Of a stretch of 64,000 bases of DNA, positions 20,111 to 59,378 are shown piece after piece. A program made the translations under genes and the position numbers. This DNA is from Paenibacillus sp. NAIST15-1 (lineage in GTDB: Bacteria; Bacillota; Bacilli; Paenibacillales; Paenibacillaceae). The first letter of the stretch is position 1. Each line of letters begins with the position of its first letter. The DNA lies in assembly GCF_001894745.1 (NCBI RefSeq), contig NZ_BBYF01000003.1:62001-126000 (forward strand). Direction: 5' to 3'. The notes beneath the pieces were generated by a model. That model ran no database searches. It saw only the letters and a list, made by a program, of their open reading frames with translations, and was not told where the DNA came from.

Positions 20111-20113
20111 CCT

Positions 20114-20726: not shown

Positions 20727-20752
20727 ATCGCCTGAGCCTCTACCATGGTAAT

Positions 20753-20809
20753 ACATCTGACAACCAAGAGGCGGTAGAACTGATGCATGAATACTTTGTT
20801 AGCAGATGT
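20753..20809 (-). repeat. attC-like palindrome copy C (clearest copy)
   Basis: The 57-bp element opens with ACATCTG (20753-20759) and closes with its exact inverse CAGATGT (20803-20809). Inside lie the cores CAACCAAG (20761-20768) and ATACTTTGTTAG (20791-20802), imperfectly complementary. It is followed to the right by the first codons of a broken VOC gene. Confidence 0.6.
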
Positions 20810-20890
20810 CCCCGACTTATTCGGTTCATACCACTTCTGTCCTTCTTCCATGTCAGATACCCGAAATTGAGTAGTCATTTCAAAAATCAT
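20810..20890 (-). pseudogene. 5' fragment of a VOC/glyoxalase-family gene
   Basis: The first ~20 codons read MTTQFRVSDMEEGQKWYE (start near 20878), the typical beginning of a VOC-superfamily protein. After Trp-Tyr-Glu the frame runs straight into palindrome C, where the encoded residues stop resembling any family, and it ends at 20666. About 80% of the expected gene is missing. The break coincides with the palindrome edge, which suggests that recombination or deletion at the repeat removed the remainder. Confidence 0.6.
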
Positions 20891-20948
20891 TGGTATCCCA
20901 CTACAAGTTCACGCTTGAATTATCAAGGAATCGTTACGTTACCGTCAG

Positions 20949-23464: not shown

Positions 23465-23569
23465 TCTACTCGACCTCCTTTGTCTGGAAGATGTACGATT
23501 TCTTATATTATTATTTAAGGTTCTTTGCATTTATTATTTCTAGATTTTGAGGTCATTTCTTATACGAAA

Positions 23570-23608
23570 AGACCCAGCCTAAGATAGCTCGTATCTTAGG
23601 CTGGGTCT
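23570..23608. terminator. Perfect 17-bp hairpin, AGCCTAAGATA family
   Basis: AGACCCAGCCTAAGATA (23570-23586) pairs perfectly with TATCTTAGGCTGGGTCT (23592-23608) over a 5-nt loop. It lies upstream of the DSD1-like gene without a gene ending beside it. A short ACATCATATAAAC (from 23619) just to its right resembles the right core of copy E read in reverse. Confidence 0.7.
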
Positions 23609-24054
23609 GCATTCTTCTACATCATATAAACTGAACACATAATGGGATAGGCTCGCTTTTTATGGATTAAAGACGCGTTGAATTATACTATCCTTTTGCT
23701 TAACCCCATTACTCAGTCTGCATCATTTTTTAAGGCATAGTTCCCTGCCACTGAAGTTATTACCGTAAGTTCAGTTTTGTCTCAAGCGATAATGTGAAAT
23801 TGAAAACCGTCTTCATTTACGTGAAACAATATATGTTCTTATCATTGGTTTTTGACATATATCGTGAGAATAAAAAAAAGCCGCAACTATGCGACTTTTA
23901 AGCATATACGTTATTCTCACCCGACAATAGTTAGTAATGTGGTTTAAATAGTTGCAAAGGCGATCTTCATTTTGATATTCATCAACAATGATGATTACTT
24001 AGCCTTACCACCAAGGCAGTGTGTGCAGTCACCACTTCAAAGAGCTCCTATTTA
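23609..24054. other. Intergenic region, no gene seen
   Basis: This stretch is AT-rich and without a credible coding frame. It contains the minus-strand terminator of the pyruvate oxidase gene (23872-23896) and nothing else that I can identify. Confidence 0.4.
23872..23896 (-). terminator. Terminator of the pyruvate oxidase gene
   Basis: On the minus strand AGTCGCA and TGCGGCT (plus 23890-23896 and 23879-23885) pair over a 4-nt loop and are followed by a run of eight T. Confidence 0.7.
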
Positions 24055-25776: not shown

Positions 25777-25867
25777 GGGAATCTCTCCTTATCTGTTTTT
25801 ATTATATTGCCATAATGAGAGCACCCTATTCTTGATTTCACAACGATTTAAGCCTGAACCAAGAAGA

Positions 25868-36900: not shown

Positions 36901-38383
36901 GCAAGCTGTGTGCAAGCCTATTGGCTTTATCATTTAGTTCCCGATATGTATACATCCTTCCATCATGAAATAACGCGGTTCGTTCCGCGTGCAACTCTGT
37001 CTGTTCTTCAAAAATCCGATCAATTGTTAAACGAGGATAATTGATGATATTGTCGTTGAACTGATGTAATATAAGCTGTTTCTCCACTTCATCCAACAGA
37101 TCAAACTGATGCAGTTCCATACCTGGCATCGTTGTTACCAGTCTGGACAATCTGACAAAATGAGCAGCCATTCTGTTCATTGTATCCGGTGTGAACAAAT
37201 CGGTGCTGTATTCCAGCTTGCCGGTAATCACATCATTATCTTCTGTCAATTCCAGCGTCAGGTCGAATTTGGAGCTGTCACTCTCCCATTCATAGCGTTG
37301 GAAGACAAGGTCGTTCATCTCCAGTTCGTACTTGTCCATATTTTGCACAACAAGCATAGTATCAAAAATGGGATGTCTGCTTGATGAACGCGCAATATTC
37401 AGCCGCTCCACCAGCATATCAAGCGGATAGTCCTGATGATCGTAAGCAGATAACGTAGTTTGCTTGATTTGGGCCAACAATTCCAGGAAAGTCATGTTCC
37501 CTTGAGGACGTGTACGAAGTGCCAGCGTATTCACAAACATACCGATAACCGACTCCAATTCGGCGCTTCGGCGACCTGCAATCGGTGTGCCAATTACAAT
37601 ATCTGTCTGGGAAGTATAACGATGCAGCAGCAGCGAATAAATACTGAACAACACCATATACAGTGTTGCTCCTTCCTGTTGAGCTATCTGCCGCGCCGAT
37701 TGGACAACATCCGCATTTAACTGAAAATGCACATAGTTACCGCGACCACTGCTGTATGACGGTCTGGCATAGTCAGTCTGCAAATCCAGTACCGGCAATT
37801 CGTCTGCAAACTGCTGCATCCAGTACTGCTCTTGTGCGCTCATTTTCTCACCGGAAAACAAATCGTTTTGCCACATTACATAATCCACATACTGCACATC
37901 TACCGGAGAAAGCGGAATGCCGTTATAAAGACAGCCGATCTCTTTTATCATAATTTGAATGGATATGCCATCCGCAATGATATGGTGAATATCAAAAAAT
38001 AAATAATAGACTGTAGGAGAAGTGCGGATCAACTTAAGCCTGAATAATGGAGCCTGATCCAGGGCAAATGGCTGTGCCAGCGATTTCAATACTTCCTCGA
38101 GCTGCTCTTCCTCCACCTCAAGCGTTTCCAGCGAAAACGGAACCGTAGCCAGTACGGTTTGCGAAATATCGTTATTGTCTAGATCTGTCTCAAATATCGT
38201 CCGCATAGATTCATGCCGCTGGATAAGCTGCTGTACTGCCTGCTCAAATTTTTGGAGATCCAGTGTCCCCAGTATTTTGAAAACAGAAGATAGGTTATAG
38301 GCTACACTGTGCGGATTGAACTGCTGAACGACAAACAATCTCCTTTGAGCTGATGATGTTTCATAACAACCTATCGTTTCCAT
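33905..38383 (-). CDS. NRPS, C-A-PCP-C
   Basis: A 1492-residue subunit. C1 about 5-430 with HHIIADG (133-139). A about 450-940 with FTSGTTGRPKG, GYGPAES, YRSGDL and lysine K931; code D644 V645 F648 T687 I711 G713 G737 T745 Y746 K931 (DVFTIGGTYK), perhaps a small or aliphatic residue but not assigned. PCP with Ser991 (LLGGHS). C2 about 1045-1460 with HHSISDG (1172-1178). The protein ends after C2 with a ~30-residue tail, so C2 must work with an A-PCP unit in trans, presumably the 828-residue protein encoded next. ATG 38383 overlaps the thioesterase gene by 13 nt. Confidence 0.92.
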   Translation of the reverse strand: METIGCYETSSAQRRLFVVQQFNPHSVAYNLSSVFKILGTLDLQKFEQAVQQLIQRHESMRTIFETDLDNNDISQTVLATVPFSLETLEVEEEQLEEVLKSLAQPFALDQAPLFRLKLIRTSPTVYYLFFDIHHIIADGISIQIMIKEIGCLYNGIPLSPVDVQYVDYVMWQNDLFSGEKMSAQEQYWMQQFADELPVLDLQTDYARPSYSSGRGNYVHFQLNADVVQSARQIAQQEGATLYMVLFSIYSLLLHRYTSQTDIVIGTPIAGRRSAELESVIGMFVNTLALRTRPQGNMTFLELLAQIKQTTLSAYDHQDYPLDMLVERLNIARSSSRHPIFDTMLVVQNMDKYELEMNDLVFQRYEWESDSSKFDLTLELTEDNDVITGKLEYSTDLFTPDTMNRMAAHFVRLSRLVTTMPGMELHQFDLLDEVEKQLILHQFNDNIINYPRLTIDRIFEEQTELHAERTALFHDGRMYTYRELNDKANRLAHSLRSRGLVQGTNVGIMAERSLEMIVGMLAVIKAGAAYVPIEPDYPTQRILNMLEDSSMEWLLVQGEPEQPLSGSLKILDLLDESLYSTNTANLGLVREPDQTAIIIFTSGTTGRPKGIMIKHLGISRLVKQTDYVELSENTRLLQTCALGFDVFTFETWAPLLNGGSLYLTDKNTFLDTARLKPFLLHHSINIMTPTTALFNHLLNEDPEIFNNLETIIVGGEVMSPSHVQILLQHHPHVRLKNGYGPAESTTYTTTYDVTNQEKKSIPIGKPITGTTCYVLDAFNQPVPIGVAGELFIGGDGLTAGYVNRQDLTDEKFLTVPWLNQERLYRSGDLVKWRADGNLIYLGRRDHQIKIRGYRIELEEIKRQILSLPQIQEAVVIPIKQEGKETQICAYYTATTFLNESDLRTQLQQLLPEFMVPQLYVQLKQMPMSANHKINTKELPPPDRVTTASDLDFISHEWPLDELERIISDIWSEILELKMISVTDNFFLLGGHSLKAVLIVARLRKELGVDVGMDEIFAQPTIRGLANQLRFRQKEDLPVPQIVEQREFYPASYQQTRLYVLEKMRRFADTSNNITDVNWITGALNKKRLKKTIQQLMERHESLRLSHQRAGEQIVFKVHDQVEVPLEWISGTEEQLPERIRQFVRPFDLTQAPLFRVGVVTISSERHVLIFDIHHSISDGFSLGLLTEEVMALFRGESLPPLEFQYKDYAVWQQSFRQSDAWHKQERYWLDIMKGSLPVLHLPTDYPRPDEQNYEGALFRFQVSIEMTFQLKRLADDTHTTLYMLLLTVYFTLLHHYSGDEDIMVGTPVAGRNQVEFQQLLGMFVNTIVLRSQPSDSKTVRELLKEVRTHTIEAFSNQDYPLELLIEKLDVRPLANRNPLFQTMFALQNMDIHPLQVDGLVITPYAYERKSSIADILLIAQEDGDALGFTFEYSTRLFRQDTVEQMAKNYVALLESLLSDGLDQTLASMNRYSDQCKNAENGDMYSLLTDTFSF

Positions 38384-39120
38384 TGAATGAAACCCTCCTG
38401 ATCTTGAATTGCGGCAGGGATGGTCTGATTGATAACGCTTACCACTTCCTCCATATGACTGTGTAGAAAAAAGTGATCCCCTTTAATCCATACGATTTCG
38501 CAGTTGTGAACGGTGTGCCGGTTCCATAACTGGATTTCTTCCCTGTTGATCTTATCGTTCAACCCGGCGAATACGGTTACCGGGCAATTTATCAAGGGCC
38601 GTGCCGGATCAAGACGATATGTCTCCAGTACACGGACATCGGCATTTAATACTTTTTTGAACTTTGCGGCCAACTCCGGACGGCGTTTAATCTCCGCTGG
38701 GATACGGCCATCCGGAAAAGACAATGGGGCCAGGAGCCTTTGCTTGAGACTGGACCAAGAAAATGTACGCTTCCGATCAGACAAAGGTGCAGGCCGACCG
38801 GATAGCAACAAATGGACAGGCGGCGGATACCCTTCCCGGAGCAGCAAATAATATAATTCATACGCTATCACTGCCCCCATGCTGTGCCCGTAAATGGCAT
38901 AGGGTACTTCCTGTACTTGTGGTCCTATCTGTGTCACCGCATCCTTTAACATATCGGCAATGCTGGCCGCATAAGGCTCGTCATAACGAGCGCCTCTGCC
39001 GGCAAGTTCAACCGGTCGGAGCTCGATATGTGGACTTAGCTGACCTTTCCACTGCCAGTATATTGTAGCCGAGGCTCCTGCATATGGGAGGCAAAATAAT
39101 ATGGTTTTAACGGTCATCAC
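38371..39120 (-). CDS. Type II thioesterase
   Basis: A 249-residue alpha/beta-hydrolase of the external thioesterase family associated with NRPS/PKS. Start FCLPYAGASATIYWQW, nucleophile GHSMGA with Ser80, late Asp in VFAGLNDKI and His in WIKGDHFFLH. It normally removes misacylated or stalled groups from carrier proteins. Because no terminal thioesterase domain exists in the cluster, a role in product release is possible but unproven. It overlaps the exporter gene by 4 nt (ATGA) and the following NRPS by 13 nt. Confidence 0.9.
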   Translation of the reverse strand: MMTVKTILFCLPYAGASATIYWQWKGQLSPHIELRPVELAGRGARYDEPYAASIADMLKDAVTQIGPQVQEVPYAIYGHSMGAVIAYELYYLLLREGYPPPVHLLLSGRPAPLSDRKRTFSWSSLKQRLLAPLSFPDGRIPAEIKRRPELAAKFKKVLNADVRVLETYRLDPARPLINCPVTVFAGLNDKINREEIQLWNRHTVHNCEIVWIKGDHFFLHSHMEEVVSVINQTIPAAIQDQEGFIQWKR

Positions 39121-42100
39121 CCCTTCTCGAATAACGGAATGCTTGGCTTGATTAAGGGAACTACCGTTTGTGTGGTCTGCTGCATAGCCACAATGCGCCC
39201 CCCATCCATTTTGATAATACGATCCGCTAGATGGAAATAATGATCATCATGCGTAATTGCTATAATACATTTGCCCCGATCCTTCATGTCCGGCAGCAGG
39301 GTATAATAAAAGAAACGGCGGTATTCCGGATCTTGATCCGCAGCCCATTCATCAAATAGACAGATTGGACGATCCTCCAAATACGCAATCAGCAAGGCCA
39401 GTCTTTTTTTCTGTCCGGTTGACAGTTTGGTTGTACTGAATGTGCCGTTATGAATAACGATCTTGTCCTGCAAATCCAGCAAGCGGAGATAGTGTTGAAT
39501 TTCTGCTTCTTTAGCCTGCCAGTCGATGCCATACAAACGGTCGAATAGATGGAAATCGCCGAAGATCGCCGAGTAGTACTCACCTAGCCCACATGAGGAA
39601 ATCACGCCATCATTCAGTGTCACCTTGCCTGTATCTGGTGTGTACAATCCAGTAAGTAACTTAGCCAAGGTTGACTTCCCACTGCCGTTACCTCCAGTAA
39701 TAAAGGTGATGCTGCCACTGTCAAATGGGCAGTTGATGGGTCCGACCGCAAACCCGGTTGGTCCCGATGTGTTATTGCCCGAATAACTATAGGTCACATC
39801 TTCCAGTTGCAATCGAATCGGAACCGTCTGGACGGCAACGTCAGCAGATGGAGGTTGAATTCTCTGTTCCACCTCCCGGATCATTTGTTTAATGCGATCC
39901 CAACTGACCTTGCTCTGCGCATACTGGGGAACGCTGTCCAGCAGTTGATTGACGGGTCCGGTCATATACAAGAACACAAACACATAATTTCGTAGCATCG
40001 ACGTATCCATCTGCTTAAAAAGCTCTGGAAATACAAATACCACACACCCGATCACCAGTATGAACAGCAGTTCTCCCAACACAAAAATGTCCGAATAACG
40101 CAGTTGATACACATTGCGCTTCTCTTTGTACGTTTCGCAACTGATCTGCATCTCTTCTCTGAATTCCCGGCGTTTGTCAGAATGAAGCGAAAGCTCCTTG
40201 AAGCCTTTCAGCAGATCATTGATAAACTTAAAAAAAACATTCTGGAGATCACGCGTTTCCTCCATTAAATGGTTCGCCCGGCTTCCTACATACATATACA
40301 ATACAGCTAGCACAGCAATGATCACTATGGATAGCAGCAAGGCATACATGTTCATAATTCCAAGATATAGAAAACAGCATAACAAGGTAATCAGATTGGT
40401 CGCGCCCGATATCAGGATTCCCATGGAGCGACTGATGGCTTCGGTATCATTATTAAGCGTCGCTTCTACACGTCCTCGTTCAAAGCTGTCCATTTTGGAG
40501 AAGCTCGTTTGCAAAAACTTATCCACCAACTCCATCCGCTTGGCATAAATAATTTGATTGGTCAGCTTAACCAGCATAGCTCGGATGATTCGCTGTCCGA
40601 ACACATACATCGCAATCGCCATCGCAAAATAAAACAGGAGCCCATTCATCAGATTATCCGTTCGGTTGAACGATTCATTGATAATAAAAATGACAAACGC
40701 ATTCCCTAAACCACTGACCAAACCCAGAACAATTGGCGTCAGAAATGACTTCTCCGTGTTTTTTGGAAAAAACAGAGTCAGCAGCGAGTAAGCCATATAC
40801 AAGGCTCCAGTAATCAGTAGCAGCCACACGGCGGTCATTACCGTCGATGGTAGCCATATTTCAATAAATCGCCAGGTCAGTTTGTACATCAGAATATCAG
40901 GAGCCTTGTATATCATCCATGCGAACAGGCAGGCAGCAATTAGATGATATCCTAGCAACCTGTAGGGCTTGGCCCGTTGAAAGGATGGTTTGCGTTTGCC
41001 GTTGCCAATGTCACGGAAGACCAGCACCAGATACACAAGTACCGCAGCTCCAATAATAGACAAGGCGATAATTAGGCCGACCGCCACAGAATCCGCTTTT
41101 TTGTAGGTATCGGAATGAATTAACGGAGGCTCTTCACCATGCAACTGGCTCAGGATGCCTTGTCCGATCCCTTGCGTATAATCGCTGTTTATATTAGCCA
41201 TAATGACAACGCCAATGCCTTCTGCCGGACGCATGCCCACATAGGAAGAAAATGTAGGGTTGTTACCCGAATGCGAAATCTCACCTTCTCCGCTTTGGAA
41301 GATATCCCAGCCTACCGCATAGGATGCACCGTTGCTCTCAGGCGGAACCGTGCGATTCGGCAGATGAGATTGATCAATCAGTGAATATTCAAAAGATCCT
41401 GAATGATCGATTCCCATCTGAATTTTAAGCCACAGAGCCATATCCTCGGCATTGCTGACTATATATCCGGCAGGGGCATTGCCCACGAATGGCGGCGGGC
41501 TGTATAATTGCGGCCTTGTATAGGCCATTTTATAACCGGAAGCCAATTCCGCGGAGGCTATCGGTTCCTGCACCGCAAAAGTATGCTTCATCCCCAGCGG
41601 CTCAAAGATATTATCTTTCATATACTCGGCATAGCTTTGCTCACTAACCTGTTCAATGATTAATCCAAGCACATCGTAATTAATGGTCGCATACTCATAC
41701 GTTTTGCCAGGCGCACGATTCAAGGGCTGGTTCTGCAATATGCGAACCGTCCTCTCCAATTCACCCGCTCCATAACCCTCCGGCAGATGGCCAATCGTAT
41801 CAAACGGTATGCCGCTCGTATGATGCAGCAGTTGCTCTATCGTGATTACGGCCGGTTGATTATGATACACAGGTTGAAACCAGGGCAGATACTTGCTCAC
41901 CGGATCATCCAGATGCAAGCGATTTTCCTTCGCCAGTTTTAACACTGCCAGACCAGTAAACGCCTTGCTGTTTGAACCAATTTCAAACAGGGTGGACGGA
42001 CTGATGGCAGTGCCGGCAGACACGTCCTTGAACCCGTAACCCCGCTGCAATATGATCTGATCTCCACTGACTATCGTGACAGACATGCCCGGAATTTCCG

Positions 42101-42263
42101 CATGTTCCATTTGCTCCTGTACCCATGATTCAATTTGCTCCAGATAGCGGGGCGTCATGTCCTCTGCTGTATTCGCATAGGACATGACCGGTGCAGACAG
42201 CGCCAGCCAGCACGCCAATATACATATCCACAGTACTCTCCAGCATTTATACGGGGAATTCAA
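39117..42263 (-). CDS. Fusion: periplasmic-side S12 peptidase - 3 TM - SyrD/PvdE-type ABC exporter
   Basis: A 1048-residue fusion. Residues 1-31 are a signal peptide or anchor helix. About 35-370 form a serine beta-lactamase-fold (S12) peptidase: SNSK with Ser97 and Lys100, Tyr191 (Y-A-T, Thr where Asn is usual), and HSG at 331-333. Three helices follow (391-416, 437-452, 470-497), then a six-helix ABC transmembrane domain and an ATPase with GGNGSGKST (857-865), LSTGQ (947-951), CLFDE and His1005. Ser/Lys/Tyr positions nearly match ClbP (Ser95, Lys98, Tyr186). In colibactin, xenocoumacin and zwittermicin pathways such peptidases remove an N-acyl-D-Asn cap. Start TTG 42263 after AGAGGGGGCGG. 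The inferred job is export plus extracytoplasmic activation. Confidence 0.9.
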   Translation of the reverse strand: MNSPYKCWRVLWICILACWLALSAPVMSYANTAEDMTPRYLEQIESWVQEQMEHAEIPGMSVTIVSGDQIILQRGYGFKDVSAGTAISPSTLFEIGSNSKAFTGLAVLKLAKENRLHLDDPVSKYLPWFQPVYHNQPAVITIEQLLHHTSGIPFDTIGHLPEGYGAGELERTVRILQNQPLNRAPGKTYEYATINYDVLGLIIEQVSEQSYAEYMKDNIFEPLGMKHTFAVQEPIASAELASGYKMAYTRPQLYSPPPFVGNAPAGYIVSNAEDMALWLKIQMGIDHSGSFEYSLIDQSHLPNRTVPPESNGASYAVGWDIFQSGEGEISHSGNNPTFSSYVGMRPAEGIGVVIMANINSDYTQGIGQGILSQLHGEEPPLIHSDTYKKADSVAVGLIIALSIIGAAVLVYLVLVFRDIGNGKRKPSFQRAKPYRLLGYHLIAACLFAWMIYKAPDILMYKLTWRFIEIWLPSTVMTAVWLLLITGALYMAYSLLTLFFPKNTEKSFLTPIVLGLVSGLGNAFVIFIINESFNRTDNLMNGLLFYFAMAIAMYVFGQRIIRAMLVKLTNQIIYAKRMELVDKFLQTSFSKMDSFERGRVEATLNNDTEAISRSMGILISGATNLITLLCCFLYLGIMNMYALLLSIVIIAVLAVLYMYVGSRANHLMEETRDLQNVFFKFINDLLKGFKELSLHSDKRREFREEMQISCETYKEKRNVYQLRYSDIFVLGELLFILVIGCVVFVFPELFKQMDTSMLRNYVFVFLYMTGPVNQLLDSVPQYAQSKVSWDRIKQMIREVEQRIQPPSADVAVQTVPIRLQLEDVTYSYSGNNTSGPTGFAVGPINCPFDSGSITFITGGNGSGKSTLAKLLTGLYTPDTGKVTLNDGVISSCGLGEYYSAIFGDFHLFDRLYGIDWQAKEAEIQHYLRLLDLQDKIVIHNGTFSTTKLSTGQKKRLALLIAYLEDRPICLFDEWAADQDPEYRRFFYYTLLPDMKDRGKCIIAITHDDHYFHLADRIIKMDGGRIVAMQQTTQTVVPLIKPSIPLFEKG

Positions 42264-42280: not shown

Positions 42281-43141
42281 CTAATCCATTAGTAGAGCAT
42301 TTCTCTGTTTACGAGCGCTCAGTACGTAGCACTTCGGAAGCTTCACTTCCTGATCTTTCAAATGATCATACAGCGCTGAAATATCGTGTTCGTACTCGTC
42401 AAAAGACTGAATCATCAGTCCATTGCTCAGTGTACAGCTCATAATGTGCGACAGGGTAGGATCGAATACATAATATGGCGCGCCTTCATAGGTCTCTTTG
42501 TTGATATAATCCAAGCCCTCGTTATATACGCGCGGTTCATCAATGAAATACGAGAACTTCATTTCCAGAGGATGTTCCTTATCATTCTCATCTAACATGA
42601 ACAGCACCGGATGAATATCGTAGATCAGTACATTCCCACCGTCTTTTAAAAGCCGCTGCACCATCTGGAAAAACAGCGATAAATCAGGAAACCAAATCAA
42701 TGAGCCGGCTGAAATATATATAAGATCAAATGTTCCGCTATACTGTTCCGGGATTTCGTACACATCGGTCTGCATAAATTCACATTCAATCCCAGCATCT
42801 ATTGCCAGCTTACGAGCTTCATCGATCGCTAGATCACTAATATCAAATCCTATACAGGAGGCCGCCCCCAGATTTTTAAGGGATAACGTTTCCGTACCGT
42901 CATTGCAGCAGAGATGAGCAACAGACTTGCCTTCAAGACCGTACGCCTTCAACTTGGCGGTTATCGTCTCATCCAGCACCGAATATCCTTTCTGGCGGAA
43001 TAGCTTCTTTCGCTCCTCCTTTCCTTTATGATGGCGGGCAGCCACCTGATTCCATGAGCGCCGGTTGGCTTCGGTATAATCCTTGATTTCCACAGTGTCT
43101 AACTCCTTATTATTTGAATTTTTAGCGTTTGGTTCGTTCAC
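42281..43141 (-). CDS. Class I SAM-dependent methyltransferase
   Basis: A 286-residue methyltransferase with motif I VAHLCCNDGTETLSL, motif II IGFDISDLAIDEARKLA, the acidic MQTDVYEIP and motif post-II FDLIYISAGSLIWFPDL. It is stand-alone, so it would methylate a carrier-bound or released intermediate or the final product; the acceptor atom is not evident. GTG 43141, with AAGGTGGAG 4 nt before, overlaps the NRPS stop by 20 nt, so it is translationally coupled. Confidence 0.85.
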   Translation of the reverse strand: MNEPNAKNSNNKELDTVEIKDYTEANRRSWNQVAARHHKGKEERKKLFRQKGYSVLDETITAKLKAYGLEGKSVAHLCCNDGTETLSLKNLGAASCIGFDISDLAIDEARKLAIDAGIECEFMQTDVYEIPEQYSGTFDLIYISAGSLIWFPDLSLFFQMVQRLLKDGGNVLIYDIHPVLFMLDENDKEHPLEMKFSYFIDEPRVYNEGLDYINKETYEGAPYYVFDPTLSHIMSCTLSNGLMIQSFDEYEHDISALYDHLKDQEVKLPKCYVLSARKQRNALLMD

Positions 43142-46100
43142 GCCGCTCCACCTTTTTGAAGCTTACAGATGAAGGATTCTCAAGGGTGGGCATGGTCTGC
43201 TTTTTCTGCAGAATCCATTGTGCCAGACTGCGGACAGTAGCCATTTCAAACAACTCGCGCAGAGTTGGAACATAACCGCAAGCAGCGCCTATTCTAGCGA
43301 CAACTGCGGTCGCCTTGAGAGAATGACCGCCCAATTCAAAGAAATTATCATTGACGCTGATTTCATCCAGTTGCAGAACATCTTGCCAGATGGCCAGAAC
43401 AAGTGCTTCTTCTTCATTTTGAGGCGGTATGATTTCCCGGATGCGTTCATCTGTATTTTGAATTTCAGATAAGCGTACCTTGTCTATTTTACCGGTAGAG
43501 GTCAACGGCATGTTGGCCACAAAAATAATCTCCTGCGGAACCATATAACCAGGGAGTCTGCTCCGAAGCCAAGCGGACAACTCCTGCCGGTTCGTCAAGG
43601 AAATTCCCGTCTGGAACTTCTCCTCACCGGATTCCGGATGTGGAAAATGCTGCACCCATACACTCGGATCATAATAGATTCCATTTTTCTGTTCCAAGTC
43701 AATCATGACAGGCTGTAACGTGATTGGCGTGATATAGCTGCCGCTTTTTGGAAACTCGATGCCGGTCCATAGCTGCCAATCTCTAATACTGCCTGTGATC
43801 GTCTGTGATTGTTCTGCAATGCTTAGAACTTGTCCGCCTGCCCGGATATGGGTTCGCAGCCAAGGATCTAACGGCAGGCCATCTGATCTGGTCAACGCAC
43901 AGTACTCTGTAAATGACTGTTCGGGATAGTTCGTTTTGCCTGTTGGTCGAACAGGTACGATAATATGCTCCAACTGGTGAGCGTCAGCCACATATTTGAA
44001 AGCTTCCAGCAGCAGCCCGGCTAGTCCATTGCCCCGTTGCTGTTCATTTACCACCCCGGCCAATATCAGTAGCGTATTGGGAGAGGGATGCGAACCGGCG
44101 GTTTCCACACTTTTCAGCAGACCCTCATCCCAGCCTTGCGGAAGATGCTCCGGTGAGCCGTCCCAATACATTGGAACGGTATTGCCGACAGCGGCAATCT
44201 CTCCATCTTCTTGTAGCAAGGCAAATTGATAATCGGTGAAGTTGGCAAACAGCTTAGGCCAGTGTTCCAGCATTACACTATCCCCGATAAAATAATCTGG
44301 CCATGACTGCCGATGCAGTGCATTCATTCCCGCGGCCAACTGCGGCATTTGCGCCAAATTAAACCATTTTAAACGTCGTGTATGGCTAAATGGCTGATAC
44401 TTGTTTGTAATTTCCACATAGGCGACCAAACCATCCATTCCTTTGTCATAGCGGTGGACAACGGCTGCGCTCGCGATATCACGGTGCTGCATAAGTACCG
44501 CTTCAACTTCCTCCAGCTCCACCCGGTTTCCTCTCACCTTCACCTGCTGGTCCAGCCGGCCGATGTAGCGAATGATGCCTTCTTCTGTATACTTGACAAG
44601 GTCGCCTGTCTTGTATAGCTTCGAGTCAGGCTTATCAGAGAACGGATCGTTCACAAAACTGTCTGCCGTGCGTTCAGGATCATGTAAATAACCGCGTGCC
44701 AGTCCTGGTGAGCTGATGTATAGTTCACCAGGCACACCTGCTGGCACAATATTCATCATTCGATCAAGCACATATACCATTACATTGCCCAGCGGCGAGC
44801 CAATCGGAACAATCTCTCCTTCAAATTCCAGCCTGCAATCAAATGTTGTTGCATCTACCGTGACTTCTGTCGGTCCATAATGGTTGTACAATCCGCAATC
44901 GAATTCCTCCCGGAACAAATCGCGCAGCTTGCGTGTAAGCGGCGCTCCGCCACTAATCACAAACCGGAGTTCAGGCCATTGTGTAAATACCCCGTTTCTG
45001 CGGGCGTTGATGAATTCCTCCAGCATCAGCGGTACAAACTGCAAGAATGCAACTCCCTGCTCCTCCGCAAGCTTCCCTAGCGCAGCCGGATCTTTGGCTT
45101 CATCAGGATGTGGTATGAAAATTCGCGCTCCGCAGGTGAGCGGCCAAAATATCTCCAGCAACGAAGCATCAAATGAATACGAGGTGTGGAACAGCGCCGT
45201 ATCATTAACCTGCAACGAATAATGCTGCGCCAGCCCGGCAAACAAATGCACGATGCCCTGATGCTCGATCTCAATTCCTTTGGGCTTCCCGGTTGTACCC
45301 GAGGTAAATAATACATAGGCCAGTGTGGAACGGTCCGCCTCTACACCCGGATTAATGGTCGACTGTGCATGCAACTGCGCCTCCAACTTGTTGAGATCAA
45401 GCAAGGTCACCGGGGGTTCAGGGTGTACAGATTGCGCCAACCATGAACCGGCTCCCGTGATCAGTACAGAAATATCTGCGGCCTGTATGATCTCCAATTG
45501 CCGTGCTTCCGGGAGTTCCGGATGGATAGGCACATAAGCGGCGCCTGCTTTCCAAACGGCAAGCAGCGAAACAATCAAATCAGCCGAACGTTCAAACCTA
45601 ACTCCGATTTTTTGCTCCCGCCGCACACCGGCAGTCAGCAGCAAATGCGCCAACTGATTCGCTTTTTCATTCATTTGTTTATACGTCATTGTCTGATTAT
45701 GATCGAAGATGGCGATCTCGTTCGGTGTCAATTCCACCTGACGTTCAATCACTTGATGCACACAGGATTGGGCTTCATAGCTGTGTGGCTTGCGATTACG
45801 TAGGTTGGCGATAATCGTTTCGGACTGTTTATCCAGCCACTCATAGGTATAAAGCGAACCGTCAGGCGAATCAATCACCTGTTGCGTTAGCAAGATAAAC
45901 TGCTCGGCAATCCGCTCTGCCGTCGTTCTTTTAAACAGATCCGTATTATAGTTCAAATTAAGTTCAATCCCGTGACCCAGTTCATCAAAAGCAAAGGTCA
46001 GATCAAAACGAGAACTGGTTTCCATGAAATCATACACTCGCGGATTGTAGTCGAGCCCAGCAAATTTCAGGTTTTTCAGTAAATTTTGTTTATTGTTTTG

Positions 46101-49100
46101 CAAGCCATACATAACCGAAAACAGCTTAGAACGCGAAAGATCATTTTCCGTCTGGATTTGCTCAATGACGAAGTTACTCGGATATAGATGATTATCATAG
46201 GCCTCGATTGCCGTCTGCCTGCTCTGGGAAACCAATTCAGCAAACGTCATATTCGGTTCTATTCGGCATTCCAACAGAATCGCCGTGGCAAACAGCCCTA
46301 GCATTCGTTCTAGCTTCACATCGTCACGGTTCACAATAGGAGAACCGACTGCGAAATGATCCTGATTGCTCAAACGGTGCATTTGTAAATTCAATACCGA
46401 CAATAGGAACATATATAATGTAATCCCATGCTGCTGACAGTAAGTGGCGATCCGCTTTTGCAAGTCCGGTTGAATCGTCTTCAGCACAGTGCCACCGTTG
46501 AACGTCACTATCGAAGGGCGCGGATAATCAGTCGGCAGGTCTAGTGCTGGCGGCACAACAGCGAATTTATCCAGCCAATACTGCCGTTTGGCTTCCAGGT
46601 ATCCAGATTGAATTGAAGTGTTCATCCATTCGGCATAATCCGTATATTCAATTTCCAGCTCAGGCAACTGCGCAGTACGATGTTCTAATTGCGAATTATA
46701 CAGTTCACTGAATTCGTCAATCAGATTCATGGACGATGTCTCATCCCAGATAATATGATGCGCTACGAACATCATCAGAAACTCTTTGTCCGCATATTCG
46801 ATCAACTTGACCGAAAACAGCGGCCCTTGGGCAAAATCAAAACTTTGATTGTTATGCTGTTCCGCCATCCGGTAGACATCTTGCATAATTTCATCCGGCT
46901 CTATATGTGTTCGATTCTCATATACGCTGTCCAGTCGGAAGTCCTGCTCCGATTTCACAACTTGAACCGTTGCGCCTTCATGATTGGCAAAATGAGTACG
47001 AAGCACGGAATGCCGTTCAATCAGTCGCTGCCATGCCCACTCAAAAGCTGGAAGATTCATATCACCATAAAACATCAAATCAAAGCTTACATTATAAAAC
47101 GGGTTGTCCGGCTCCAGTTCATGCAAATACCACTCCGGCAGTTGAACAGGAGCAAGCGCGTATGCGCTTTTAGGCGGAAAACGGCGCAACGGATTATTGT
47201 CCGCAGCCTCTCTCGTTGGAGAATGGCCAGTTGTTTTGGCCGCTTTTTCCTGATCAATGACTGCCGCCAGTTCATGCAATACCGGGGTCGTGAAAATTTG
47301 CTGGAGTGCCATACTGATACCAAACTGCTTCCGAATCCGGTTTACCAGTTTGACTGCACTGATGGAATGCCCCCCCAGATGAAAGAAATGATCCTGTGCA
47401 TCCACTTGCTTTAATTCCAGGATCTCTGCCCATAAGAAGGAAAGTTCCCGCTCTGTCGGGGTAGACCATGTTGCCGGTTTGGATGGTGCGGATGCGATAT
47501 ACTCGTTCGCCCATGACTGCAATGTTTTGCGGTCAATTTTCTCGCTGGTCAGTAGCGGCATTTGCTCAATGCTGATTAACTGCGCTGGAACCATATAATA
47601 GGGCAGCTTCTCCTGCAAATAAGTCCGCAATTGTTCCGGCTCCAAACGCTCCTTGCTTGTATAAAAGGTAACCAGCATCGAATCGCCATTTCCTTGCTTT
47701 CTCGCAATCACCGCCGCTTCGTCTATCCCTGGATGACGGTTGATTACCGCCTCTACCTCACCAAGCTCAATACGGAAACCGCGTACCTTGACCTGATGAT
47801 CGATCCGGCTGGAAAATTCCAGATTGCCATTCGGCAACCAACATCCCAAATCACCTGTCCGATAAACAATGCGCTCATGTTCGTGGTTGGCAAACGGATT
47901 GGCAATGAACTTGCTGCGGGTCAGCTCGTCATTATGCCAGTAACCGGCTCCAACGCCAATTCCGGAAATCCATATTTCACCCTTTACCCCTACCGGGACT
48001 GGCTTATGAAATTGGTCCACCACATACAGACGCATGTTAGGAAGTGGTTTGCCTACAGGAATGCGCTTATGTGTCAAGTTAGATTCATCCTGAACATCAC
48101 TGCGCATCATATACTGGGTTACATCATCCGAACATTCCGTAGGTCCATAGGCATTAATCAACGGTATATCCGGGAGCATGGTAAACCAGCTTTTGACCAG
48201 TTTGCCAGGCAGCTCTTCCCCGTTGGCAATCATCCAGCGCAAGGAGGGCAAGGAACGTTCGGAAGCAGGCATACTTTCCATCGTATCCAAGAAAGCAAAC
48301 AGCAATGAAGGAACGGTCTCGATAACTGTAATCTGATGATTCTTTATATGCTGCAACAATAACGTTTGATCCCGACCCGCCTCAAAGGAAACAATGGATG
48401 TCTGTCCGCCGACCAGCAGCGCAACAAGCGCTTGCCAGATAGAGACATCGAAACTGATCGAAGCATTTTGTGCTACAATATCGCGTTCACTCAGTTGCAG
48501 GCTATAAATTTTGGCGTACAGATGATTGATCATGCCATTATGGCGTACGAGTGCACCTTTGGGCGTACCGGTTGAACCGGAAGTGTAGATCATATAAGCA
48601 AGCCGTTCGGCTGAAGGATCGTCCTCCCCGTCAGTTACCGGGAAATCAGCCAGACACTCGCTGGTGATCAGCTCATGTTGCTGCGGCCATAATGGCCCTT
48701 CCCCTATCGGCATATCCACACACAGCACAGAAAGGCTTGCAACCGTATCCAGTCTGCTCACGCGTTCCAGCAGTTGATTCTGAGTAATCAGAAGCTGTGC
48801 AGCGCAGTCCTGTAAGATATAAGTTGCGCGTTCATCCGGCACATTCGGATCAATCGGCACATAGGCTGCACCACTCTTGAGAATTGCCAGCAGCGAGGTC
48901 AGCCAGTCAAGATTGCGCTCACACATAACAGCAACAAATTGCCCTGACTTTATACCGCGGCTGCGTAAAAAATGCGCCAAACGGTTCGCACGCTCATTTA
49001 ATTCTCTATACGATAATTGCTCTCCGTCGTAAGAGGCCGCAATATGATTCGGCGTACGTACAACCTGCTGTTCAAACAGTATAGGAAATGGCGTATGTAC

Positions 49101-50525
49101 CGGGAAATCAACAGACACCTGATTGAAATCTTCCATCACCTGTGTGCGCTCAGTCTCCGACAGCATATCCATTTCGCTAACAAGTATCGTTGGATTCTGG
49201 ATGGCCTGCTGGACCAGTTGTAAAAAATTACAGCTTAACCGTTCCATTGAAGACGATTCAAACAGGTGGGTGGCATATTGAATATAGCCTTCGATCTGCC
49301 CTTCCTTTTGATAAAGCTCAAATATAAAATCAAATACGGAATAACGGATAGGTTGAAGCGAATGTTCAAATGACAAAAACAATCCTGGCGATATTTCGCG
49401 CACAGCTTTGCTGTCTGCATGCAGTGTATGCATTTCAAACACAACATCATATACGGGATGATGGCTATTATTGCGATCTGCCCCCAGATCATGGACGATC
49501 ATATCGAACGGATATGCCTGATTTTCCTGAATATTTAGCACATTTTCTTTGATTCGTTTGACAAATACGCTGAAAGACTCTTCTCCGTTTATCTGATTAC
49601 GCACCGGTAGTGTATTGATGAAGCTGCCGATCATTCCGTTCAAATCGGGATGAAATCGGCCTGATAAAGAAGTCCCGACAATGATGTCCTGATTCCGTGT
49701 ATATTTGGCGAGCAACACATTCATAATTCCTAATAAAAACATGTATAGACTCACATCCAACTGCTCACATGTTTTTTTGAGCGATACAAACATTTCCTCG
49801 CCAATAACCAGCGGTACGGCCGCCCCGGTATAGGTTCGTTCCGCTGGACGTTGATAGTCCAGCGGGAAGTTCAGATCGAGCAGTTCCCCAGCCAAATAGT
49901 CAGCCCAGAATTGACGCTGGTCCGCCAATTCACCGCCCGTCAGCATACCGTTATGCCAATGAGCATAGTCGCTGTACTGAATATCAAGCTCTGGTAGTAC
50001 AGGCGGAACCTGGGTAACATGCGCCTTGTAAATCACCATCAGTTCGGACAGTATAATGTCGATCGATAGCCCATCGACGATGCTGTGATGAGCGACGATC
50101 ATGCAGATATGTTTGTCCGCGGATAACTTATACAAGGTGAACCGAATCAACGGGGCCTGCTGCAAATCGAACGGTGTATTCAATTCCTCCTGTATTCTAT
50201 GCTCCAGCCGCTCACGCGAATCATCAGCCGAAATATCATAGATCGCAACCGGAATATGAATATCGTGAAAAACGAGCTGCAGCGGCGAGCCGTCCTGATC
50301 CCGATAACTGGTACGAAGGGCAGCATGCCGTTTCGCCAGATCCTGTACTGTCTGTTTAAACAGCCCCACGTCCAGTGGGCCGACCAGTGTAAATACAGTA
50401 GACACATGGGACATTGCGCGAGCTGATGGATCATCGGAAAAATCAAGCTTGTCCAGGAACCAAAATCGTTTTTGCGTATGTGATAATTCATATTGATTAG
50501 TTGTCGATTGAGTAGAAATATTCAT
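43122..50525 (-). CDS. NRPS, C-A-PCP-C-A(GNAT insert)-PCP
   Basis: A 2467-residue bimodular NRPS (residues numbered from ATG 50525, which has AAAGGAAG 7 nt upstream; the frame opens at 50543). C1 with HHSIVDG (146-152); A1 about 475-1000, code DVWEINADDK; the two Asp at positions 330/331 suggest a basic substrate. PCP1 Ser1054. C2 has HHIIWDE (1256-1262) instead of HHxxxDG. A2 about 1590-2355, code DALQIGHVDK, not assigned. Between A8 (VKVRGNRVELEEVEAVL) and A9 (LRSRLPGYMVPQ) about 265 residues are inserted, holding a GNAT-like acetyltransferase. PCP2 Ser2402. Third biosynthetic protein in the assembly line. Confidence 0.93.
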   Translation of the reverse strand: MNISTQSTTNQYELSHTQKRFWFLDKLDFSDDPSARAMSHVSTVFTLVGPLDVGLFKQTVQDLAKRHAALRTSYRDQDGSPLQLVFHDIHIPVAIYDISADDSRERLEHRIQEELNTPFDLQQAPLIRFTLYKLSADKHICMIVAHHSIVDGLSIDIILSELMVIYKAHVTQVPPVLPELDIQYSDYAHWHNGMLTGGELADQRQFWADYLAGELLDLNFPLDYQRPAERTYTGAAVPLVIGEEMFVSLKKTCEQLDVSLYMFLLGIMNVLLAKYTRNQDIIVGTSLSGRFHPDLNGMIGSFINTLPVRNQINGEESFSVFVKRIKENVLNIQENQAYPFDMIVHDLGADRNNSHHPVYDVVFEMHTLHADSKAVREISPGLFLSFEHSLQPIRYSVFDFIFELYQKEGQIEGYIQYATHLFESSSMERLSCNFLQLVQQAIQNPTILVSEMDMLSETERTQVMEDFNQVSVDFPVHTPFPILFEQQVVRTPNHIAASYDGEQLSYRELNERANRLAHFLRSRGIKSGQFVAVMCERNLDWLTSLLAILKSGAAYVPIDPNVPDERATYILQDCAAQLLITQNQLLERVSRLDTVASLSVLCVDMPIGEGPLWPQQHELITSECLADFPVTDGEDDPSAERLAYMIYTSGSTGTPKGALVRHNGMINHLYAKIYSLQLSERDIVAQNASISFDVSIWQALVALLVGGQTSIVSFEAGRDQTLLLQHIKNHQITVIETVPSLLFAFLDTMESMPASERSLPSLRWMIANGEELPGKLVKSWFTMLPDIPLINAYGPTECSDDVTQYMMRSDVQDESNLTHKRIPVGKPLPNMRLYVVDQFHKPVPVGVKGEIWISGIGVGAGYWHNDELTRSKFIANPFANHEHERIVYRTGDLGCWLPNGNLEFSSRIDHQVKVRGFRIELGEVEAVINRHPGIDEAAVIARKQGNGDSMLVTFYTSKERLEPEQLRTYLQEKLPYYMVPAQLISIEQMPLLTSEKIDRKTLQSWANEYIASAPSKPATWSTPTERELSFLWAEILELKQVDAQDHFFHLGGHSISAVKLVNRIRKQFGISMALQQIFTTPVLHELAAVIDQEKAAKTTGHSPTREAADNNPLRRFPPKSAYALAPVQLPEWYLHELEPDNPFYNVSFDLMFYGDMNLPAFEWAWQRLIERHSVLRTHFANHEGATVQVVKSEQDFRLDSVYENRTHIEPDEIMQDVYRMAEQHNNQSFDFAQGPLFSVKLIEYADKEFLMMFVAHHIIWDETSSMNLIDEFSELYNSQLEHRTAQLPELEIEYTDYAEWMNTSIQSGYLEAKRQYWLDKFAVVPPALDLPTDYPRPSIVTFNGGTVLKTIQPDLQKRIATYCQQHGITLYMFLLSVLNLQMHRLSNQDHFAVGSPIVNRDDVKLERMLGLFATAILLECRIEPNMTFAELVSQSRQTAIEAYDNHLYPSNFVIEQIQTENDLSRSKLFSVMYGLQNNKQNLLKNLKFAGLDYNPRVYDFMETSSRFDLTFAFDELGHGIELNLNYNTDLFKRTTAERIAEQFILLTQQVIDSPDGSLYTYEWLDKQSETIIANLRNRKPHSYEAQSCVHQVIERQVELTPNEIAIFDHNQTMTYKQMNEKANQLAHLLLTAGVRREQKIGVRFERSADLIVSLLAVWKAGAAYVPIHPELPEARQLEIIQAADISVLITGAGSWLAQSVHPEPPVTLLDLNKLEAQLHAQSTINPGVEADRSTLAYVLFTSGTTGKPKGIEIEHQGIVHLFAGLAQHYSLQVNDTALFHTSYSFDASLLEIFWPLTCGARIFIPHPDEAKDPAALGKLAEEQGVAFLQFVPLMLEEFINARRNGVFTQWPELRFVISGGAPLTRKLRDLFREEFDCGLYNHYGPTEVTVDATTFDCRLEFEGEIVPIGSPLGNVMVYVLDRMMNIVPAGVPGELYISSPGLARGYLHDPERTADSFVNDPFSDKPDSKLYKTGDLVKYTEEGIIRYIGRLDQQVKVRGNRVELEEVEAVLMQHRDIASAAVVHRYDKGMDGLVAYVEITNKYQPFSHTRRLKWFNLAQMPQLAAGMNALHRQSWPDYFIGDSVMLEHWPKLFANFTDYQFALLQEDGEIAAVGNTVPMYWDGSPEHLPQGWDEGLLKSVETAGSHPSPNTLLILAGVVNEQQRGNGLAGLLLEAFKYVADAHQLEHIIVPVRPTGKTNYPEQSFTEYCALTRSDGLPLDPWLRTHIRAGGQVLSIAEQSQTITGSIRDWQLWTGIEFPKSGSYITPITLQPVMIDLEQKNGIYYDPSVWVQHFPHPESGEEKFQTGISLTNRQELSAWLRSRLPGYMVPQEIIFVANMPLTSTGKIDKVRLSEIQNTDERIREIIPPQNEEEALVLAIWQDVLQLDEISVNDNFFELGGHSLKATAVVARIGAACGYVPTLRELFEMATVRSLAQWILQKKQTMPTLENPSSVSFKKVERRERTKR
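43608..44402 (-). other. GNAT-like acetyltransferase domain inside the second adenylation domain
   Basis: Residues about 2042-2306 of the NRPS at 43122-50525. The acetyl-CoA-binding motif Q-x-x-G-x-G is QQRGNGLAG (44025-44042 for the core). Flanking segments (MPQLAAGMNALHRQSW, ALLQEDGEIAAVGNTVPMYW, LPLDPWLRTHIRAGGQVL, WTGIEFPKSGSYITP, YYDPSVWVQH) correspond to a full-length stand-alone GNAT family with the PWLR-H and WTG-F-SG-Y blocks. A8 and A9-A10 of the A domain resume intact on both sides, so this is an in-frame insertion and not a second protein. Methyltransferase domains are known at the same position in other A domains; that analogy suggests modification of the loaded residue or its amine. 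Confidence 0.8.
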
Positions 50526-50551
50526 CGCAAAACTTCCTTTCATGCAGTTTC

Positions 50552-53500
50552 TTATTCCTGATTCATCGGAACAGCTTTCGGAATGGAAGACCGAATTTTG
50601 GATACCGGCTTAGCATCTTGGAGTTGTTCATGGATAAATCTACTTAATGAACGAATCGTATCATAGCGGAATAGCGTGTTCGCATCTAGCTGCAACTGAT
50701 AGATTTGCGACAACTGCACAGTAATATCAATTCCAAGAATCGAATCGCCACCGATGGAGAAATAGTTCTCGTTCACATCTGGAGCTTGCTCCATCTCCAA
50801 CATTTCGGTCCAGACACGCGCAACCGTAGACTCAATACTCTCTAGGCTGATATCCGCTATGGATGGTTTGGCAGATGAGGCATTCATCCTTTTCCTAAGA
50901 TCGGGCTCCAGTTTGAAATACGCCTGCTTGTCCAGCGCCTGCAAATCCTGCTCATCCAATCCCGTCACCATTAAATGACTGGATCGCGCACCGGTAATCG
51001 TCCAAAATGCCTCAACCCCCTGCTTGCGGTCATAACCCAGAATAAGTGGAGATAATCGGGCAATTTCATGAATATGGGAGGACTGCAGCTCTTCGTTCTT
51101 GCTTCCCATCCCGGTAAATTGCCATCCTCCCCACTGAATAGATATAAACTGCCGGCCAAGCTGTCTTTGTTGCAACGCATATTGATCCATAAAATGATTA
51201 GCACTAGTATAGGGTCCCAGATTTTTCTCTGACAATATAGCGTCTACAGAGGAGAAGGTCATAAAAAAATCAACCATATGTTCACGCAGCAGCATATCCA
51301 GAAGTACCGTCCCATAGACTTTAGCTTCATATACATCCTGATAATCTTCCATACTTGCCTCTTGCAGCGAAACCCGCTTCCCTAGTATACCTGCCGCATG
51401 AATAACCCCGTCGACGTTGCCGTATTGAGTGGAGATTCGCTCAACGGTTGACTCCAACTCATTGCGTTCTGCAATATTAACCGCAAAATACTGTACATCA
51501 GCGCCTAGCTCCGCCAGGGAACGAATATCGGCAAGCTGACGCTGGCTCATATTCTCTTCGCGGGTACGTCCCAGCAGCACGAAAGTGGCACGATATTTGC
51601 TTGCGATCGCACGGCATATTTCTGTCGCTATGCCTCCGGTTCCGCCTGTAACCAAGTAGACACCATCATTGCGAAACAACTCCCGCTTTGTCTTGGAAGG
51701 GACAGATTCGTTCAAATACCGAACATAACGAGTGCCATTCCGGTAGGCCACTTCTTTCGTTTCATCATGCCAGCATACTTCGTTATAAATATGCTGTAAT
51801 GAGACATCCTTCGCCCACTCCGACGCTTCCAGGTCAATGCAACGCGACTCCAGTAACGGATATTCATGATTGGCGCTGCGATTTAGAGATACGATAAAAC
51901 TTTGCAGCGGGTCAACAATGGCGTCTTCAGATGCAACCTTGTCCGCATTTCTAGTAATATGGAACAACCGCGCCGGTGTGGCAGCCGTATGCAGCGCAAG
52001 CTGCCTCGTCAAATACCAGGCAGGTGCGAGTATCCCGTCAACCACCGCAGACAACTGCTTCCTGTCGGTAACCATCCGATCCTGCAACGGTTGACTGGAT
52101 GAGATATGAATGCATGTATTGACAATTTGGTCGCTGTCTCTTAATTGCTTCAATACGTCGGCGATTTGATCTTCTTCATTTATATTCACTTCATAGACCT
52201 GCCGCTCTAACTGACGATATTGAGAGCCGTAATACATTTGTACGACATCCATGCCCTCACCGCGGAATTTATTCGCCAGTTGTTCCTGCCAGTCAGAGTG
52301 TTCGCCAACTATCAGCAAGACGCCCTGTAATAGATGCTTGCGCTCACGCTGAAGCTGAGTCGGTTTCCAATACAGCCGATGCAGCAGTTTACTGGTTACG
52401 GCACCTGTTTCCTGTTGTTCTTGATGACGAACTTCAATCGCTTTGCGCTTTGTCGAGTTCATATCGAACCAGTATGATTTGCGTTCGAATGGATAGACAG
52501 GCAGGGAAACAACATTGCCCGTCTGAATTGGTGTCAAATCAAGGTTCCAGCCTGCTTTGTACAGATGTGACAGTACCGTCAGCAACTGGTGATCCCCCTG
52601 TGTGAAACCGAACACATCTGCTTCCCATTGCTGGGGAGGGATGGACGAACCCTCGGTGGATTGGGATGCTGTGTCAAGAAGCTGATGAATGGGTATTGCG
52701 CCTGCAGTCAGCAGGATGCCTCTATGTGCAAACCATTGCTGTTCATTCATATTCGTATTGTGTTGTGCTAAGCTCGTATGCAACGCGGCGTCTGTAACAT
52801 TTGCCAGTGTTCCTTTATTCTGCATAACATTAGAGACCGCTGCTCCAATGCCGATTCCACTCAGCTCATAGTTCAGTCCTGTTGCCTGCAATAGACTGAC
52901 GATAGCGTACAGAAACGAAGCATAGATCGCTCTGGCCCGAAGCTGCGGGTCATCACTTGAAGCAGCAATATACTCATCGTATTGCGCTCGTTGCTCACGG
53001 TTTATCCAGCCTGTCAGGACTAATTGATCGTAAAGCCGCTCCGCACCCGGAATATAATCTTGCAGCCACAGACTGACCCTTGCCTCTGTTTGTCCATGGC
53101 GGGCGTGAATTTCAGCAGCCTGTTCCAGCCGTTCGATGAGTTCCTTTCGAGTATGAGCGACCACAGCGAACCGATAATTATCCTGACTGCGCCGGCAGTT
53201 CAACGTATAGCTTATATCCGCAAGGGCAGCTTGATGATTATGCATAAGATGCTGCCGCAGTCCGTCTATCTTTCGTTGTACAATTGCAGGAGTTGAACCT
53301 GATACGGTGAACAGATACGGGATCTGCTGCACTTGATCCGGATCAGGTCCATTCTGTGGACCGTCCAACACCGATTGAGGTTCGAATTTCTCCAGAATGA
53401 TATGCACATTCGTACCACTCAGCCCAAATGAACTCACACCGGCACGAAGCGGCTCTCCAGCGACTGGCTGCCAAGAACTTAATGTACCGTTTACAAGGAC

Positions 53501-57901: not shown

Positions 57902-57926
57902 ACTGACCTCCCGTATAGTTGCGTGA

Positions 57927-59348: not shown

Positions 59349-59378
59349 GGAAGTATTCCTTTCTATATACAAATTTAA

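Follow-up and report, generated by a model that had tools for sequence, protein, structure and literature searches.

A probably functional GNAT-superfamily domain interrupts an NRPS adenylation domain in Paenibacillus and in distant bacteria

The second adenylation (A) domain of an NRPS from Paenibacillus sp. NAIST15-1 is interrupted between motifs A8 and A9 by a domain of the GNAT superfamily, and sequence comparison shows this insert to be real, conserved and probably functional, representing a new variant of the interrupted A domain. Its presence at the same site in distant bacteria points to a built-in step in which the growing peptide is probably acylated. We lean modestly toward reading the insert as an active acyltransferase, predicted from sequence to belong with the CurA-like GNAT enzymes and housed inside an otherwise normal A domain.

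The NRPS gene lies at 43122..50543 on the minus strand of the window, by which we mean the whole 64,000-nucleotide stretch of DNA analysed, and encodes 2473 residues that open reading frame and Pfam analysis arrange as C-A1-PCP-C-A2(GNAT insert)-PCP, with two stretches each of Condensation, AMP-binding and PP-binding matches. An initial annotation of this DNA had given the NRPS as 43122-50525; position 50525 is in fact the second methionine (residue 7) of a frame that runs from 43122 to 50543. Also on the minus strand, the protein comprises the uninterrupted A1 domain (residues 490-1002, 47538..49076), with the code DVWEINADD(K); the Condensation domain that precedes the interrupted A domain (residues ~1121-1560, 45864..47183, from Pfam); the N-terminal part of A2 spanning motifs A1-A8 (residues 1601-2042, 44418..45743), with the code DALQIGHVD(K); the GNAT-fold insert between A8 and A9 (residues ~2046-2312, 43608..44408); and the remainder of the A2 C-terminal subdomain together with the PCP (43212..43556, with the PCP at 43403-43212). 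The motifs of A2 are FTSGTTGKPKG (A3), NHYGPTE (A5), GRLDQQVKVRG (A8, 44561-44529), LPGYMVP (A9, 43556-43536) and STGKIDK (A10, 43499-43479), and the serine motif of the following PCP, LGGHSLKA, is found at 43334-43311. The insert begins directly after the strand GLVAYVE and stops ahead of the stretch leading to LPGYMVP. The motif scan picked up four further A domains in the window and missed that of 59379-63959; A8 and A9 are separated by 57, 57, 57 and 59 residues in these four and by 324 in A2. The extra sequence of ~267 residues agrees well with the ~265 originally annotated between A8 and A9. Across ten aligned interrupted A domains (the window plus nine of the ten interrupted loci, with L027 omitted) FTSG.TG.PKG, NHYGPTE, TGD, the A9 motif and the A10 lysine are all retained. 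A2 is an a8-a9 interrupted A domain, with a foreign domain between A8 and A9 and both parts intact. Judging from the retained core motifs and LGGHSLKA, both halves of A2 and the following PCP look functional, as had been supposed. We ruled out an assembly artefact as the source of the insertion because the same architecture recurs in 12 genomes or records.

Interruptions between a8 and a9 by methyltransferase, oxidase, monooxygenase and KR or reductase domains are described in the available portions of two earlier works, as is the action of embedded a8-a9 methyltransferases on a residue already attached to the T domain (PMC11355689, PMC8949500). As far as the accessible text describes TioS, KtzH, McyA and IndC, A2 resembles them in carrying a catalytic domain between a8 and a9 of an intact A domain that is followed by a PCP, and differs from them in that its insert is a GNAT-superfamily domain. 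The insert is therefore of another kind than the methyltransferases, oxidases, monooxygenases and KRs described at this site, which makes A2 a variant rather than a non-member, given that the class is defined by the interruption itself. In the literature searched, which left most subscription papers outside its scope, no GNAT insert in an A domain was found, consistent with the original view that such an insert was unreported, and neither 'GNAT' nor 'acetyltransferase' appears in the main text, where accessible, of the reviews on interrupted A domains. The abstract of a 2020 catalogue of interrupted A domains (Lundy) reportedly treats methyltransferase inserts. A GNAT domain within an A domain is likely absent from print.

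Profile comparisons make the GNAT identity weak for the single window sequence and firm for the family. On its own, the window insert matched Pfam Acetyltransf_1 (PF00583) at E 0.013 and 0.0064, neither reaching the curated cut-off, and had zero matches in NCBIfam, whereas 35 of the 55 aligned family members matched PF00583 at E ≤ 0.01. A 55-row profile, which combined the window sequence with 54 of the 80 retrieved loci, identified the GNAT domain of CurA (curacin loading module, 2ree) as its best solved relative, at E 1.7e-9 and at the top of 28 matches, with the match spanning just 87 of 249 profile positions; the PKS-related chains 7uci and 7ucl followed at 0.0039, and ordinary acetyltransferases appeared from 0.0073 on. 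By profile, then, the insert belongs near the CurA branch of the GNAT superfamily. No Pfam model for a methyltransferase, KR or oxidase matched the insert, and these candidates were dropped on that ground. The GNAT-like character assigned in the initial annotation is borne out by these family-level matches, and the methyltransferase match that it had named as evidence to the contrary did not appear among the Pfam models.

Three short motifs, all on the minus strand, hold the conserved positions of the insert. QQRGNG (residues 2168-2173, 44025..44042) corresponds to the pyrophosphate-loop motif of GNATs, and its glycines are kept in the inserts (G2171 in 13/14, G2173 in 14/14), while the first Q/R is not conserved; the QxxGxG motif first proposed here is thus present in the window and general in its glycines, and its leading Q is not kept in other inserts. 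VPVRP (residues 2196-2200, 43944..43958) includes R2199 and P2200, which are invariant across 85 rows (14 inserts and 71 free-standing homologues), and V2198, which aligns with CurA Thr355 and is Val in all 14 inserts and in 63 of the 71 free-standing homologues. Within DPWLRTH (residues 2226-2232, 43848..43868), R2230 and H2232 are the equivalents of CurA Arg387 and His389 in a gapless part of the alignment, and a chain offset of 215 fits all three residue equivalences (Arg387, His389 and Thr355). R2230 is kept in every insert and every free-standing homologue (14/14 and 71/71), and H2232 in 14/14 and 69/71, respectively. The accessible part of the CurA study reports that Arg387 binds the CoA 3'-phosphate, that His389 is catalytic, that Thr355 is needed for decarboxylation, and that in canonical GNATs a Tyr acts as general acid at the position of His389 (PMC3701320). 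The inserts therefore have the catalytic His of the CurA and MCD decarboxylases and lack its Thr/Ser dyad partner, and in the sequence alignment the Tyr general acid of canonical N-acetyltransferases is absent, with His there instead. The earlier label of an acetyltransferase-like domain holds for the GNAT fold predicted from sequence; the insert should not be called an ordinary N-acetyltransferase, however, because it lies near the CurA branch and His replaces the Tyr general acid. Compared with the CurA loading-module GNAT (2ree/2ref) and malonyl-CoA decarboxylase, which by profile occupy the same branch, the insert has Val in place of the dyad Thr355/Ser and is found inside an NRPS A domain rather than at the start of a PKS.

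We then asked how widely this architecture occurs. A scan of 84,980 species gave 259 matching stretches; 196 of them encode a relative, and the best 80 of these 196 were kept for analysis. Ten of the best 80 loci are A-domain inserts. The remaining 70 comprise 59 whose open frames do not exceed 330 residues and 11 with longer frames, in which no A domain was matched. Other A domains with GNAT inserts, which had been named as something to look for, thus exist: adding the window, B. glumae plasmid L011, second copies in Baia and Croceifilum, and the Paenibacillaceae genome G439 to the ten scan loci gives at least 15 interrupted NRPSs in 12 genomes or records, and two further B. glumae records carry the match of L011. 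The taxa involved are Paenibacillaceae, Thermoactinomycetaceae, an Alkaliphilus MAG, Burkholderia/Trinickia and a Legionellaceae MAG, with identity of the insert falling to ~36%. GNAT-interrupted NRPSs are rare: they were present in 3 of 19 genomes sampled from the genus; the family sample contained a relative at E ≤ 1e-20 in 6 of 394 genomes (four inserts and two free-standing); the order sample contained relatives at E ≤ 0.001 in 8 of 296, with an insert in the window only, as judged by open-frame length; and the phylum sample contained relatives in 3 of 398, with the window itself as the sole insert. In P. alvei DSM 29 the NRPS (L014/L015, joint 18541-25850) is split across two overlapping frames, reflecting either a sequencing error or a real break.

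In an unrooted tree of 85 rows, which left out the later-found G439, the 14 inserts formed a single clade with support of 100/100, separate from the 71 free-standing homologues, and 0 of 500 label shuffles gave a value as low for this clade. The simplest reading of this topology is that the GNAT domain was captured once by an A domain, although this is not proof because the tree is unrooted. Selection was evaluated in eight chosen pairs with simple Nei-Gojobori counts, dS of the insert being unsaturated in four. For these four pairs the omega values of the insert and the A core were 0.068/0.058, 0.063/0.095, 0.071/0.072 and 0.103/0.176, that of the insert being slightly higher in the first; in the four more distant pairs, where dS of the insert was saturated, protein identities of insert and A core were 73/70%, 54/47%, 55/56% and 72/74%. 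In close pairs the insert is under purifying selection comparable to that on the A core.

The free-standing homologues are proteins of ~245 residues found in many phyla (e.g., L073 of Paenibacillus cymbidii, L049 of Lederbergia, and Streptomyces spp.). They share the invariant residues of the insert and 31-41% identity over most of its length, and differ from it in having no fusion to an A domain. Their gene context revealed zero recurring neighbours that explain function, five of the 14 neighbour groups shown being common to close Streptomyces only. One Inquilinus homologue (L061) first appeared as a 650-residue fusion, yet its N-terminal part reads as an off-frame GC-rich stretch and it was treated as free-standing. 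On a Sinorhizobium medicae plasmid (L120:10506-26574) a free-standing homologue is located in an NRPS cluster that also holds a ParB-like protein, a SagB-type dehydrogenase and a PPTase. We considered this arrangement as a split version of the same pathway and rejected it, as BLAST showed the NRPS to be without the bimodule described below; the 511-residue neighbour there has no match to the B. glumae one, and only the ParB-like gene is common (37%).

The unit common to the interrupted NRPSs is a bimodule, C-A1-PCP-C-A2(GNAT)-PCP, which is divided between two separate genes in Trinickia and B. glumae. The usual active-site motif of C domains is HHxxxDG; in the window, HHIIWDE takes its place in the C domain that precedes the interrupted A domain (46760-46740), and WDE occurs in 15 of 15 interrupted modules (HHIIWDE in 14 and HHILWDE in one), while the preceding C domain ends in DG in the 11 proteins where the scan saw one. 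Because WDE is kept in its C domain, the module C-A(GNAT)-PCP seems to travel whole, as a unit. The HHIIWDE C domain may be a subtype adapted to an acylated or Dap-bearing donor. Codes were read in 13 A1 and 13 A2 domains, with a tenth letter K appended and L027 missed by the motif scan. For A1 the code was DVWEINADD in 9/13 and DIWEITADD in 3/13, the exception being DIWQLISDT in Alkaliphilus; the first two are close to DIWELTADDK, which we take to be the Dab code. For A2 it was DALQIGHVD in 10/13, with D235, Q278, H322, V330 and D331 identical in all 13, and the G439 codes, read by eye, are DIWELTADD (A1) and DVLQIGHVD (A2). The codes suggest that A2 most likely takes one fixed residue; that this residue is a small polar amino acid is a guess. 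Linear gramicidin synthase was considered as a special relative of A2 and discarded, since its high score is a sum over two A domains and is therefore uninformative on the A2 substrate.

Genes for diaminopropionate synthesis provide further evidence on A1. Outside the genus, 7 of 8 genomes or records have an SbnB-type gene within 25 kb on the insert's contig; six of these genes pass the cut-off, and that of G310 falls just below it at 315.8 bits with one stop codon inside the match, while 0 of 14 control genomes passed. SbnB was not found in the Alkaliphilus MAG, which has the deviating A1 code and may be incomplete. In the window's own genome, SbnA is found ~1 kb past the window edge (G000:C3:127044-127955) and SbnB on another contig; the G439 cluster has BLAST homologues of both, and SC116 has SbnA above and SbnB below the cut-off on a contig different from that of the insert. 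The Baia19 and Croceifilum C3 loci instead have an SbnA-like gene, an ATP-grasp/lyase fusion and a GHMP-kinase gene, assigned by family matches in Baia19 (SbnA-like at 240 bits, below the cut-off) and by BLAST in Croceifilum C3; P. alvei has BLAST homologues of this set, which may represent a second, lyase-based diaminopropionate route. At L100:15065-19754 and L130:5821-10675 the SbnA-like gene, the ATP-grasp/argininosuccinate-lyase fusion and the GHMP kinase adjoin or lie near the bimodule, and the fusion corresponds to separate genes in P. alvei. SbnA passes the cut-off in 9 of 19 genomes of the genus (7 of the 16 without an insert) and SbnB in 5 of 19 (4 of 16). We therefore rejected the presence of SbnA/SbnB as an insert-specific mark; because insert-free genomes of the genus often have these genes, presence alone is uninformative and only linkage is informative. 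The code and the linked SbnA/SbnB genes together indicate that the A1 substrate is most likely 2,3-diaminopropionate. By sequence, the interrupted module is mostly preceded by a Dab/Dap-type A domain, often near diaminopropionate genes.

In the model that we favour, A2 would load one fixed amino acid onto the next PCP, whose phosphopantetheine arm would then deliver this residue, or the peptide once extended, to the embedded domain; we propose this visit because embedded methyltransferases act on the T-linked residue. The embedded domain would bind an acyl-CoA via its GxG loop and conserved Arg, a CoA donor being favoured over an ACP donor because the equivalent of the CurA ligand of the CoA 3'-phosphate is kept, and, using its conserved His as acid/base, would pass the acyl group to a nucleophile on the tethered chain. 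As acceptor, the side chain of the A2 residue or of the preceding diaminopropionate would be more likely than the alpha-amine, since the upstream C domain needs the alpha-amine. We infer the acyltransferase activity, its action in cis on the PCP, the acyl group and the acceptor; that the group is acetyl and the acceptor an amine is a guess. Transfer is preferred to decarboxylation because Val replaces CurA Thr355, and kinship with the CurA branch alone is no proof of acyl transfer, as related PKS-starter GNATs are described as decarboxylases. We hold more tentatively, at a little under an even chance, that these proteins form a separate family of interrupted A domains defined by a CurA-branch GNAT with a His/Arg-Pro site, captured once and carried in an HHIIWDE Dap-X cassette that would acylate a carrier-bound dipeptide. 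The same tentative standing applies to this cassette spanning Bacillota and Pseudomonadota, with His/Arg-Pro in place of the His-Thr dyad.

Several alternatives must be weighed against an acyltransferase. The Asp at A2 code position 331 is a poor fit with a carboxylated side chain, such as would be expected if the insert were a CurA-like decarboxylase, or a decarboxylating S-acyltransferase, acting on a carboxylated carrier-bound substrate. The CurA GNAT is the closest solved relative, the catalytic His is retained, and the GNAT domains of LynB1, CurA and GphF are described as decarboxylases in the accessible part of one report (PMC10127204); the dyad Thr/Ser is nevertheless Val throughout the inserts and in most free-standing homologues, and T355V drastically cut decarboxylation by CurA in the portion of that study available (PMC3701320), leaving this activity quite unlikely. 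For the insert's family as a whole, no characterised enzyme or known activity was found. Embedded domains can become scaffolds, and the insert might in principle have lost catalysis and serve the A domain as a structural spacer, docking surface or acyl-CoA sensor; this is unlikely given that the presumed active-site residues are conserved over two phyla and that purifying selection is on par with the A core. The GNAT fold may alternatively perform other chemistry on a Dap-X dipeptidyl-PCP, such as amide or ring formation with a donor that is aminoacyl or malonyl. A Dap-type module often paired with the interrupted module, the unusual WDE in 15 of 15 C domains, the invariant Arg-Pro in the region of CurA Thr355 and the weak scores to curated GNAT models are consistent with this, but direct support is nil and simple acyl transfer requires fewer assumptions, and we regard it as improbable.

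Acetylation of the product for self-protection, raised in the initial annotation, has precedents of a different kind. Edeine and EdeQ are a case similar to paenilamicin and PamZ. According to the available part of the description of paenilamicin (PMC9054821), this compound contains N-methyldiaminopropionate, and its producer inactivates it by means of the N-acetyltransferase PamZ, a tandem GNAT. PamZ and EdeQ resemble the insert in their GNAT fold and in belonging to clusters with prodrug export and Dap-type residues, but they are separate enzymes acting on the released drug, whereas a domain embedded in the NRPS would work on the assembly line and its acyl group would enter the product. Three related clusters have their own separate small GNAT (one by Pfam Acetyltransf_3 and two by BLAST homology), and the window carries a beta-lactamase-fold peptidase/ABC fusion of the kind tied to prodrug resistance; because of these, self-protection by the insert is very unlikely.

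Embedded tailoring domains serve NRPS engineering, and an embedded acyltransferase, if correct, would introduce a modification that is new on the assembly line and could serve as a portable part; the Dap-X cassette, if correct, would perform a reaction for which no embedded NRPS domain is known. The bimodule occurs without a larger assembly line at one locus in each of two Thermoactinomycetaceae genomes, and such a stand-alone form is small enough for direct testing. The bimodule also marks uncharacterised clusters in Paenibacillus, Thermoactinomycetaceae and Burkholderia.

The surrounding cluster in the window includes, on the minus strand, a starter module C-A-PCP-E (59379..63959) with the A code DLTKIGEVG(K), presumably Asn-like, and the E-domain-associated TIGR01720 above the cut-off; it likely makes an acyl-D-Asn prodrug cap. 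Directly upstream of the bimodule in the assembly line is a hybrid C-A-PCP-KS-KR-ACP (50552..57949, minus strand, from Pfam), whose Pfam matches include KS, KR and two carrier domains and no AT, so malonyl loading is probably in trans. The same strand encodes a free-standing methyltransferase (42281..43141) that shares 45% identity with genes adjacent to the homologous clusters in two congeners, a thioesterase (38371..39120), a further NRPS gene with C-A-PCP-C (33905..38383), and a gene at 39117..42263 that was compared with PamJ as described in the accessible text (PMC9054821). A PADLOC search returned nothing. An aminotransferase-fold protein (57927-59372) lies between the first and second assembly-line genes and has counterparts with 62-68% identity in four other clusters. 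The cluster's last NRPS gene (31395-33881) opens within a Condensation domain, the Pfam model being matched at positions 188-329 of 456 only, and continues with A and PCP. Related ATP-binding cassette genes are found near several clusters (L014:481-2037, L100:12701-14257, L108:6123-7649 and L011:27632-29074); by eye these appear ABC-F-like, and could be either housekeeping genes or ribosome-protection resistance genes.
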